64,000 nt of DNA from Pseudomonadota bacterium (GTDB lineage: Bacteria; Pseudomonadota; Gammaproteobacteria; Burkholderiales; Chitinibacteraceae): positions 29,755 through 93,754 of the forward strand of contig JAPLQI010000004.1 of NCBI GenBank assembly GCA_026399755.1, in the 5' to 3' direction. This document shows positions 7,171 to 11,707 of this stretch, one piece after another. Each line of letters begins with the position of its first letter. Position 1 is the stretch's first letter. A program made the translations under genes and the position numbers. The notes under the pieces were generated by a model. It saw nothing but the letters and a program-made list of their open reading frames with translations. It had not been told where the DNA came from and searched no databases.

Positions 7171-8022
7171 ATGCGTATTGGCTATTTAATCCTTTGCCAC
7201 GCCCACCCTGCGCAATTAGGCCGGCTTTGCCAGCAAATTTCTGAAGAAAATACCCGGCTTTATATTCATGTAGATGCCAATACATCAGAGCATGAATTTG
7301 AGGCCATGAGAGCAGCTGCCCCCAAAGAGGCGCACTTTATCGAGCGGCAACGCTGCCGCTGGGGAGGATTTTCCTTGGTAAGTGCCAGCTTGGCCTTGAC
7401 TCAGGCGGCGCTGAAAGACGATTGCGATTATATGGTTTTATTATCTGCACAAGATTTTCCGATTAAATCGCAGCAAGAAATCGTTACGCAATTACAAGGC
7501 AGGGCTGGGTTTATTGAGTTTCGCCGCCAGCCAGACCCAGAGTTTGATATTCGCTATCGCTACCAAAGCTATCATCCAGAATGGCTAAAAGGCAGCCTCG
7601 CAGGCAAATTGCTACAAAAAATACAGCGCCCGATTAACAAATTTGGCTTATTTAAGCGCAGCCTGCCCCAGCCATTAACAGCGATTTATTCTGGCTCACA
7701 GTGGTGGTGTTTATCTAAACGCGCCTGCCAAACGCTGCTTCATTTTTGTGAGCAAAATCCAAACATCATTGCTTACTTTCGCCAAACCTTAGTACCCGAT
7801 GAAATGTTTGTGCAAACCATTTTGATGCACACGCCCATCAAGGATGAGCTAATCAACAATTCACAGCACTATCTGGAATGGGCAACTGGCGCTTGGTCGC
7901 CTCGTACCTTTGAGCTCAGTGATATTGAGCGCTTACTGGCGCATCCTGCACTCTTTGCCAGAAAATTTGCGATTGACGGCCAAGTGACAACGCAAATCAG
8001 TCAGCATTTAAAACTCATATAA
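7171..8022 (+). CDS. Core-2/I-branching-type (GT14-like) glycosyltransferase
   Basis: MRIGYLILCHAHPAQLGRLCQQI...LYIHVDANT...CDYMVLLSAQDFPIKS...GSQWWCLSKRA pattern typical of beta-1,6-N-acetylglucosaminyltransferases. Confidence 0.82.
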   Translation: MRIGYLILCHAHPAQLGRLCQQISEENTRLYIHVDANTSEHEFEAMRAAAPKEAHFIERQRCRWGGFSLVSASLALTQAALKDDCDYMVLLSAQDFPIKSQQEIVTQLQGRAGFIEFRRQPDPEFDIRYRYQSYHPEWLKGSLAGKLLQKIQRPINKFGLFKRSLPQPLTAIYSGSQWWCLSKRACQTLLHFCEQNPNIIAYFRQTLVPDEMFVQTILMHTPIKDELINNSQHYLEWATGAWSPRTFELSDIERLLAHPALFARKFAIDGQVTTQISQHLKLI

Positions 8023-8111
8023 TCATGCACTTATTCAAAACTCAATGAGTCATGAAATTTTGATTTTTATATCAGATAATACAAAGGACTATATCAATCT
8101 AGAGACACAAA

Positions 8112-9899
8112 ATGGGTGCTTTGATCGGAATCGTTTCTCAGAACAATGTTCTGAGCAATATTAATCAACAACTCGCCCCTCTAATTGAACAAGGCCATTG
8201 CAGCGCAACCCTTATTAGCGATCAAGCCGATGCGCAAATTCTATCCTGCCCTATTCTCACCTTGCACCGGCATTTGCACGAGCAAACGGCACATCGGGTT
8301 TTAATCCGCTTAGATTGGGATAAGCCCAATAGTAGTAGTGTGGCCAACTGCCGACAATTTATATCCGTGTGTTGTCGAGGCTTAATTGAAAATAGTGAAG
8401 CCTTGCAAGATAAATTGGCCATCTTGGGCTATTTAAACGAGAGAGTAAGCACAGCCCAACTTGCCGCCGATTTAATTCACTGGCATTACCGCACCCAACA
8501 TGATTTATTAAAAGCGGTTCATTTAGCCGCCAGTGAAATCTGCGGTGTTTATGCCTTGGGGGTGATATCGACAGATCATCCTGATGAAATCATCTGCACC
8601 TCAAAGCAGATTCCTCTCTTTATTGCGCTAGGGGAAAGCTGCGCAGCTTTCTCAGACCAGCCACAAGTACTCCAAAGCATTGCTCCAGAAATGCACTGCT
8701 TGGCCCTTGGTGATACAGCAAAATTTAGCACTAAGGAATGCACCATTGTCGATCATCAGGGCGAGCCCTGCCAACGATTGGCGACAGATCTTCAGCAAGT
8801 CAGCATCAAGCTGCATGGCTTTCATCACTATATGCAAAAGGAAATCAAAGAGCAGGCGGCCATTTTTGCCGACATCCTTGATGACACGGGTTGTGACGCC
8901 AATTTAGCTCAGCTACTCGATAGCGATGCCGCGCGGGTACTTTGCGATATAGAAGGCATTTCATTACTGGCCAGTGGCAGTAGTTATCATGCGGCACTGA
9001 TCGCTCGCTACTGGTTTGAAGCCTTGGCTGGCCTCCCCTGCACAGTAGAATTAGCCAGTGAATATCGCTATCGCGATGCAGTTCAGCACCATAACACGCT
9101 GATTATTGCGATCTCCCAATCAGGGGAAACCGCCGACACCATTGCCGCACTGAAACATGCACAAAGCCAAAATCACGAACACACACTGGCCATCTCTAAT
9201 GCGTCCCCCAGCACCTTGATGCAATTGGCTCGCTTCCAGCTCTTTTTAGCTGCGGGGCCAGAAATTGGCATTACCTCAACCAAAACTTTTAGCACCCAAT
9301 TGCTTGCCTTATATCGACTAGCGCTCAGTTTTTCAAAATTACGGGGTCATCTTGCTCCCGCAGCAGAAGCCGCTGCCTTTGATGACCTGCAACGCCTACC
9401 CCGTGCAGCAAGTGAGCTAGATAGCATCACCGAACAATTGCAAGAATGGGCAAAAATGATATACGCCTGTAAGCATCTGTTTTTTGTTGGCCGCCATCTT
9501 TATTACCCCCTCGCCCAAGAGGCTGCTTTAAAGATGCAAGAAGTCGCTTATATCCATGCCTATGGCTTCCCTGCTGGTGAACTAATCCACGGACCACTGA
9601 CATTAGTAAACAAAGACTTACCTGTCATCGCCTGCTTACCATGGAACCGCCTAACCGAAAAACTACTTGCTAATTTGCAAGAAGTCAGGGCACGAGGTGG
9701 CGAGTTATTTATTTTATCTGATGCAGGGCTCGCCTCAGCAGAACACTTTAATGTGATTTGCATGAGCCATAATCTGCACGATTTAAATCCCGTTTTATAC
9801 GGCATTGCCTTACAAAAATTGGCATATTTAACTGCAATATTACAAAATAACGACGTGGATACCCCAAGATTTCTAAGCAAATCGGTAAAGAAATCTTAA
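8112..9899 (+). CDS. GlmS-like protein: degenerate N-terminal glutaminase (GATase) domain plus intact double-SIS isomerase domain
   Basis: SIS domain: ISQSGETADTIAALKHA, STKTFSTQLLALY, ALKMQEVAYIHAYGFPAGELIHGPLTLV, C-term PRFLSKSV. N-term MGALIGIV lacks the usual MCGIVG Cys. Confidence 0.88.
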   Translation: MGALIGIVSQNNVLSNINQQLAPLIEQGHCSATLISDQADAQILSCPILTLHRHLHEQTAHRVLIRLDWDKPNSSSVANCRQFISVCCRGLIENSEALQDKLAILGYLNERVSTAQLAADLIHWHYRTQHDLLKAVHLAASEICGVYALGVISTDHPDEIICTSKQIPLFIALGESCAAFSDQPQVLQSIAPEMHCLALGDTAKFSTKECTIVDHQGEPCQRLATDLQQVSIKLHGFHHYMQKEIKEQAAIFADILDDTGCDANLAQLLDSDAARVLCDIEGISLLASGSSYHAALIARYWFEALAGLPCTVELASEYRYRDAVQHHNTLIIAISQSGETADTIAALKHAQSQNHEHTLAISNASPSTLMQLARFQLFLAAGPEIGITSTKTFSTQLLALYRLALSFSKLRGHLAPAAEAAAFDDLQRLPRAASELDSITEQLQEWAKMIYACKHLFFVGRHLYYPLAQEAALKMQEVAYIHAYGFPAGELIHGPLTLVNKDLPVIACLPWNRLTEKLLANLQEVRARGGELFILSDAGLASAEHFNVICMSHNLHDLNPVLYGIALQKLAYLTAILQNNDVDTPRFLSKSVKKS

Positions 9900-10054: not shown

Positions 10055-11707
10055 ATGAAAATGACCACGCAATTAAAATGGGTAAGCAGCTTAACCGTCG
10101 CTGCTCTTATTTCTCTTGGCGGCTGGATGGCCTGGGAAACCCATGCACTTGCACATGATTTTACCGTGGATAGAGACAGTCAAGATGCCGTAAAAGCACT
10201 GAATAAAGCCCGTAATACCATGCTCATTATTTCCCGCTTAGACCCTCTGGCAGAATCGGCGAATAGCCAATTAAACGCAGCCCAACAAAGCGTGCAAACG
10301 GCAGTGCCCATCATTAAAAAATACTTAAGCCCCGCCGCCAAGCAACAATTAGACGGCATGCTCAGTGGTCATTGGCAAAATTATCTAAAGCAGTTTCAAA
10401 GTGCCATCACTATTGCCACAGACAGCCCGCAAGACGCTTTAAGCATTCCTGAGCAAATCTATAAAAATGAATTAGAACCTAGCTTGGCGGTACTCAATCA
10501 AATTGAAATGGCTTTACAAAGCCAATCACAAGCAGCCAATCACATTATTGATTCACGGATTAATCATTTATTATTTGTTGTGCTCTTGCCGCTACTTTTG
10601 TGCGCTCTATTTATTTTGGCCAGCCAGCTGCATTTTGCCCGCAAACTAAAAAGCCGCTTACAAGCCATGGCTATTGAAACGGCAAAACTAGAAATGGGAG
10701 ATTTAAGCTGCCGTATTGCAGAAACACCCGATGAAATGGGTGAGCTGGGCCGTGGGATCAATCGATTTTTAAATCAGCTAGAAAGCACACTGCAGCAAGC
10801 ACGACTAGCCTCACAGCTGTCTAGAGAAGAAGCAGGCCATGTAACGCACCTTGCCCAAGCCAACCATGAAGGTGCCACATTACAAAGCAATCACTTACTA
10901 GAAATTGGCTCAAGTAGTGTGCTACTGCAAGATTCTATTAACCATATCAGTGTACAAGCCTCTCGAACCGCCAGTATCAGCCAACAATCGCTGCATAGCG
11001 TACAAGCAGCTCATTCGGCAGGCAACGATTCAAGGCTCAAGCTAGAAGCACTGGCGGGTGACTTTAATCAAATCGAAACCACCATGCAGGCTTTAAGCCA
11101 AGCCATCCGCCAAATTGTAAATGTAGCTGGCATGATCGAAGACATTGCAGGGCAAACCAATCTACTCGCGCTCAATGCCGCCATTGAAGCAGCTCGCGCT
11201 GGCGAGCATGGCCGTGGCTTTGCGGTAGTGGCCGATGAAGTACGCAAACTATCCCAGTCCACGGCAGAATCAACCAAAAATATTCGCCGTATTTTAGTTG
11301 ACACCCAAACCTGCACCCAAGACACCCTAGAAGCCATGCAATCTGCCGCCACCCGTGTGACCGAATGCCAACAAGATAGCCAAACGATTAGTAGCGCCTT
11401 AGGAGATATCAATCAGGCCGCGAGCAAGGTGCACGATATGATGGCCACCATCACCGCCTCAGTAGAAGAGCAAAGCTCATCTAGCGAAGCGATGAATGAA
11501 AGATTGCGTGATATTGGCGGCAACGCACAGGCGAGCAGCCAACGTAGCGAACAAATGCTGAACGAAATGCGCGAGCTGACTTTTGCTGCCAATCATCTCG
11601 ATACACAGCTGGCCTTCTTTAAATTTCGCCGTCACGGCCATGATCATAAAGAAGAGCCAATTTCTATCAGACCAATGACTCATTTCGATTTGCGCTTGGC
11701 CGCTTAA
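10055..11707 (+). CDS. Methyl-accepting chemotaxis protein
   Basis: N-terminal TM, TM at ~aa 170, HAMP, hairpin tip [43 protein letters not shown]. Confidence 0.95.

Follow-up and report, generated by a model that had tools for sequence, protein, structure and literature searches.

GlmS, the two-domain GlcN6P synthase (NCBIfam TIGR01135), in which we take Trp74 to be the channel gate, has SIS-only relatives in the GlcN6P deaminases NagB-II and GlmD. According to a review of GlcN6P synthases, Cys1 is the sole catalytic residue of the glutaminase domain, Glu488, His504, and Lys603 are the catalytic residues of isomerization, and these enzymes cannot use ammonia (PMC9272926). NagB-II, the SO3506-type SIS GlcN6P deaminase (NF046059), performs GlmS-related SIS chemistry without glutamine hydrolysis, and the archaeal deaminase GlmD (NF041128) aminates Fru6P with ammonium, a reaction that yielded GlcN6P in engineered yeast (PMC12385614). 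In addition, amino-linked sugar phosphates are the substrates of two further kinds of SIS enzyme, the fructoselysine-6-phosphate deglycase FrlB (NF008481) and AgaS-type proteins, and a C1A laboratory mutant of E. coli GlmS (PDB entry 3ooj) represents a glutaminase-dead form.

Our analysis of a 64,000-nucleotide stretch of an Iodobacter genome (Chitinibacteraceae; 4.95 Mb in 145 contigs), hereafter the window, concerns a gene with the working name glmS2, whose product is almost certainly a glutaminase-dead GlmS paralogue (Table 1). A preliminary description of the window had reported here an ORF without the N-terminal catalytic Cys, and this reading held: the product begins with MGALIGIVSQNN, and MGALIG stands where canonical GlmS has MCGIVG. 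Since the frame is open upstream of the ATG for only three codons (RHK) before a stop, there is no alternative start with an N-terminal Cys, and a different true start that restores it can be ruled out. The same description had called the gene a GlmS paralogue and advised looking for a canonical glmS elsewhere in the genome; indeed, a separate copy, whose product starts with MCGIVGAVAQ, was found on contig C65 (35715-37253; G000, L002 and L076), and glmS2 is thus not the sole glmS. The two proteins share 40% identity over 513 residues, which is far above chance, and the glmS2 protein is 33-34% identical to E. coli GlmS in a full-length fold alignment. It scores above the TIGR01135 cut-off (451 vs 418 bits) in an alignment that starts at residue 79, and SIS domains are the only Pfam domains above threshold. 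We also observed the glmS2 locus, at 96% protein identity, in a metagenome-assembled genome titled Janthinobacterium (L034, JANYCY010000097.1), a title that looks misnamed.

Table 1. Features at the glmS2 locus (positions in the window)
Feature	Position	Strand	Basis
Core-2/I-branching (GT14-type) glycosyltransferase, upstream neighbor	7171..8022	+	Domain search
GATAAT, probable -10 box within the TATATCAGATAAT block	8075..8080	+	Consensus match and conservation
glmS2, encoding a 595-aa GlmS paralogue with a dead GATase domain	8112..9899	+	ORF, ATG start
N-terminal domain, residues 1-225; glutaminase (Ntn) fold that lacks the catalytic residues	8112..8786	+	Alignment and structure prediction
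Residues 66-69, Arg-Leu-Asp-Trp replacing canonical His71-Thr72-Arg73-Trp74	8307..8318	+	Invariant R, D, W among 15 core relatives; L in 14
Residues 89-94, RGLIEN replacing canonical NGIIEN; oxyanion Asn98 replaced by Arg89, Gly99 kept	8376..8393	+	Alignment
Tandem SIS (isomerase) domains, residues 240-595	8829..9896	+	PF01380; superposes on E. coli isomerase domain
SQSGET phosphate-binding loop (E. coli S347-Q348-S349...T352)	9114..9131	+	Active-site alignment
Lys474...Glu477 (E. coli Lys485, catalytic Glu488)	9531..9542	+	Active-site alignment
His493 (E. coli His504, catalytic)	9588..9590	+	Active-site alignment
CLPWN family signature, invariant Cys508, Pro510, Trp511	9633..9647	+	Sequence comparison
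Lys590 (E. coli Lys603, catalytic)	9879..9881	+	Active-site alignment

We compared the active sites of 39 canonical GlmS proteins of the same order with those of 32 paralogues, one of which has no N-terminal domain, leaving 31 full-length sequences. All 39 canonical proteins carry C1, R26, R73, W74, A75, T76, H77, N98, G99, and D123. Among the full-length paralogues, C1, R26, N98, and D123 occur in none (0/31), the placement of R26 and D123 following an alignment of ~22% identity, and only G99 (31/31) and W74 (25/31) are still widespread. The window protein differs from GlmS in having lost Cys1, Arg26, Arg73, His77, Asn98, and Asp123, and in carrying a pocket with Arg66, Asp68, and Arg89 as well as the CLPWN signature in its SIS half, where the Trp position is mostly occupied by Asn in canonical GlmS; the Trp74 position persists as Trp69. 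The preliminary description had listed YRGYDS, HTRWATHG, the Asn of HNGIIEN, and TDTE as missing, and our motif check agrees. Judged from the lost site, glutamine-dependent GlcN6P synthesis by the glmS2 protein is very unlikely. As for the SIS half, which was said to retain the isomerase catalytic residues, the window protein has every residue of the scored set, and across the paralogues S303, S349, K485, H504, and K603 are present in 32/32 and S347, Q348, T352, and E488 in 31/32.

Structure prediction is consistent with this division. AlphaFold2, run on the family alignment, gave a full-length model (mean pLDDT 86.4, pTM 0.90) whose closest PDB structures are those of E. coli GlmS, with the C1A mutant 3ooj at the top; that mutant differs by a single engineered change, whereas the entire glutaminase site of glmS2 has been replaced by evolution. 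The SIS half of the model matched E. coli isomerase-domain entries with TM scores of 0.92-0.94 normalized by target (rmsd 1.7-2.4), and the isomerase domain with GlcN6P (1moq) at 0.92. Predicted alone, the N-domain (pLDDT 91.5, pTM 0.90) found its top match in the E. coli glutaminase domain 1xff (TM 0.84 normalized by query length, 22% identity), and the fold is therefore predicted to persist without its chemistry.

The glmS2 protein thus shares with GlmS the two-domain architecture, the predicted fold of both halves, and the SIS catalytic residues. In contrast, NagB-II and GlmD have no N-domain, and the glmS2 protein scores 113 bits against the NagB-II cut-off of 430 and 72.7 bits against the GlmD cut-off of 580; in the tree, it groups with GlmS and not with NagB-II-like proteins. 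FrlB is similarly distant (30.5 bits, cut-off 430), and AgaS was unmatched. The open-access literature that we searched yielded no description of a glmS2-type protein or of natural dead-glutaminase intermediates. The parts are known; their combination, a naturally glutaminase-dead, long-kept, and remodeled two-domain GlmS with later domain loss, is new with respect to that literature.

With regard to distribution, we searched 61 relatives and then 43 genomes of the family, nine of which were re-searched with a divergent member. The paralogue is present in 33 of the 43 Chitinibacteraceae genomes and in 8 of 11 genera, and genome searches found it absent from genera g3, g5, and g9. A further form, group B, has diverged more and occurs as a second type in genera g6, g10, and g11, with g10 having group B alone; its members (L049, L051, L053, L056, L058, L059, L061-L063, and L065) lack the Arg-Leu-Asp-Trp set and have Trp at the Trp74 position. 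An N-domain profile run against 369 genomes of the class found no other comparable scorer (best non-self score, 147 bits vs 334), a search that an independently dead GlmS could escape.

In trees built from SIS columns only, the dead copies form a single clade (98/100, and 100/100 with a reduced set) set apart from canonical GlmS in both trees, with group B as a sub-clade (100/99). The dead clade joins the family's native canonical clade at 84/95, both being long branches, and its descent from that native GlmS is uncertain. As far as sequence comparison can tell, glmS2 represents a long-standing GlmS paralogue of the Chitinibacteraceae in which glutamine hydrolysis has been abandoned. The canonical GlmS proteins of Iodobacter and genus g8 (G000 L002, L076; G042 L100) cluster, with good support, with other families of the order and apart from the 15 other canonical GlmS proteins of the family; Iodobacter GlmS is 85% identical to the GlmS of another family (f7) and groups there. 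Because of this grouping, Iodobacter and g8 appear to have swapped their essential canonical GlmS for foreign copies in two separate events while retaining the paralogue. As a separate observation, one g6 genome (G428, contigs C1 and C4) has two canonical glmS copies with equal scores.

The strength of selection on the two halves was assessed by pairwise dN/dS (Nei-Gojobori), the ratios being rough as many dS values are near saturation. Within Iodobacter, the ratios were about 0.03-0.07 for the SIS half and 0.07-0.13 for the N-domain, and in genera g4, g7, and g8 they were 0.09-0.23 and 0.26-0.38, respectively; canonical GlmS gave 0.01-0.15. Both domains are well under 1 in every genus tested, which points to an N-domain that is under looser purifying selection, constrained rather than in free decay. 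In a core set of 15 sequences from five genera, in which the window N-domain is 28-36% identical to those of other genera, every member has Arg66, Asp68, and Trp69; Leu67 and Arg89 each occur in 14/15. These residues sit at the canonical positions His71 (Arg66), Thr72 (Leu67), Arg73 (Asp68), Trp74 (Trp69), and Asn98 (Arg89). Of the columns at the former glutaminase site, 6/12 are conserved, compared with 25/224 in the domain (hypergeometric p = 0.0006), and a strict site list gave 4/9 (p = 0.01), in a test that is post hoc and uses related sequences. These data are suggestive of a former glutaminase pocket that was remodeled, not just eroded, in the core family. Hence the preliminary description was right that the GATase domain is retained, but "eroded" does not do justice to the new conserved residues of the core family. 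The Arg66/Leu67/Asp68/Trp69/Arg89 set varies in g6, g11, and group B.

The genomic neighborhood of glmS2 offers little guidance. Beyond the glycosyltransferase, the opposite strand carries ispA and dxs; these and the other housekeeping genes nearby are uninformative for function, and no fixed operon partner or special-sugar-pathway operon was found around the glmS2 copies across the family genomes. The glycosyltransferase adjoins glmS2 in Iodobacter, g11, and one g6 genome (G428). Functional coupling of the two genes is weak, as their presence is not linked across the family: glmS2 occurs without the glycosyltransferase in g2, g4, and most of g6, and the glycosyltransferase occurs without glmS2 in g3, g5, and g9. 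Of seven Iodobacter loci, six keep the TATATCAGATAAT block and one has a variant of it, and on account of this conserved block with its -10-like GATAAT, glmS2 probably has its own promoter. An Rfam search at the locus gave no match. A methyl-accepting chemotaxis protein gene (10055-11707) directly follows glmS2, and similar genes, which are numerous, are also found close to glmS2 in g7 and g8 and close to group B in g11.

We tentatively read the glmS2 protein as a glutamine-independent SIS enzyme that catalyzes with free ammonia, and, arguing by analogy, we put the probability of this reading at about 0.48. Its SIS half would open and isomerize a 6-phosphosugar by GlmS chemistry (Lys603, Glu488, and His504), and free ammonia would be exchanged instead of channeled glutamine nitrogen (GlcN6P <=> Fru6P + NH3), either in the deaminating direction or, at high ammonia, in the aminating one, as in the SIS-only GlmD and NagB-II. 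The dead N-domain may then serve as a lid, a gate, or an allosteric module, and the Arg66/Asp68/Trp69/Arg89 set could form a salt bridge that plugs the pocket, or could bind some other ligand. We favor ammonia exchange because the full SIS catalytic set is strongly constrained and the glutamine half alone has been given up, and because GlmD shows that such chemistry is possible. Given that GlcN6P synthases are reported to be unable to use ammonia, glmS2 would have to gain that ability.

Several observations count against ammonia exchange. The canonical glmS, nagB (contig C36; 278.5 bits, above the cut-off), and pgi (contig C71) of the source genome already cover all obvious reactions. A stand-in role for a missing nagB is ruled out, since nagB is present in every paralogue-bearing family genome of that search, and the same applies to pgi, found in 37/37 genomes searched. 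Moreover, the protein lies far under the NagB-II and GlmD profile cut-offs, and catalysis cannot explain the constraint on a set of domain-less copies in g11. In four species of that genus (G034, G431, G432, and G433), a 351-368-aa copy (L121-L124) wholly lacks the N-domain and adjoins the same GT14-type glycosyltransferase on its downstream side. Here, SQSGET is changed to AESGEA and Glu488 to Ala, with the C-terminal Lys also gone in one copy, and the GlmS mechanism is unlikely to operate in these proteins, which are probably non-catalytic. Among the four, dN/dS is 0.14-0.20 and there are no frameshifts, so they are still constrained. No other observation argues as strongly that glmS2 has a non-catalytic role, in g11 at least.

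The main rival to ammonia exchange, possible but less probable in our estimation, is a sensor or regulator with little or no catalytic activity, whose SIS half would bind GlcN6P or Fru6P and whose N-domain pocket or interdomain motion would signal to a partner, be it canonical GlmS, a regulator, or another protein. It is supported by the g11 copies, where selection persists although the N-domain, Glu488, and residues of the phosphate loop are gone; by the overlap with glmS, nagB, and pgi; by the new conserved residues at the former glutaminase site; and by a precedent in Salmonella, where GlmS is inhibited by its binding partner EIIA-Ntr (PMC5024086). However, all full-length members keep the SIS catalytic set despite N-domains that are up to 72% different, and Iodobacter and g8 apparently took a foreign GlmS yet kept the paralogue, which would be unexpected for a partner closely tied to GlmS. 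Nor did a Pfam search of the glmS2 protein find a DNA-binding domain that would fit a regulator, and a fixed operon partner is likewise missing from the family loci. A bolder proposal, which we consider rather unlikely, is that the glutamine pocket was rebuilt (Arg66-Leu-Asp-Trp69 and Arg89) as a new ligand site, so that the protein became a dedicated amino-sugar or nitrogen sensor, and that duplication, N-domain loss, and loss of SIS catalysis followed later under selection.

It is improbable that the protein is a plain 6-phosphosugar isomerase (Fru6P <=> Glc6P, or another phosphosugar) evolved from the GlmS isomerase domain. All ring-opening and isomerization residues are kept, several SIS families are such isomerases, and weak profile matches to them exist, but the ubiquity of pgi in the genomes searched and the lack of a special-sugar-pathway operon at the family loci weigh against this role. 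That glmS2 is a relic in slow decay, without any present role, is more improbable still. Two of nine Iodobacter genomes have a broken or absent copy (G003 carries an internal deletion that fuses an N-terminal stub to C-terminal fragments, and G005 has no copy at the expected site next to the glycosyltransferase and ispA), leaving the paralogue in 7/9, and the N-domain evolves faster than in canonical GlmS; yet a relic would not be expected to show dN/dS well under 1 in both domains of every genus, retention in most genomes of the family, selectively retained catalytic residues, and a conserved promoter-like block. Finally, a working glutamine-dependent GlmS with another nucleophile is hardly credible: Ser follows Met in about half of the paralogues and the TIGR01135 cut-off is exceeded, but the position is variable (G, S, A, N, D, or P) and Arg26, Asn98, and Asp123 are lost in all, so that an alternative nucleophile in glmS2 can be ruled out with the remaining site gone.

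Scoring above the curated GlmS cut-off, the glmS2 protein would receive the annotation GlcN6P synthase, which would mislead metabolic models of these bacteria, members of a family of aquatic and often chitin-degrading organisms. Collectively, this one bacterial family offers a graded series that runs from canonical GlmS through a GlmS with a dead glutaminase and a second duplicate to a probably non-catalytic form that has shed the N-domain and remains under selection. The clade makes it testable how an amidotransferase abandons glutamine, and what purpose the retained dead domain serves.
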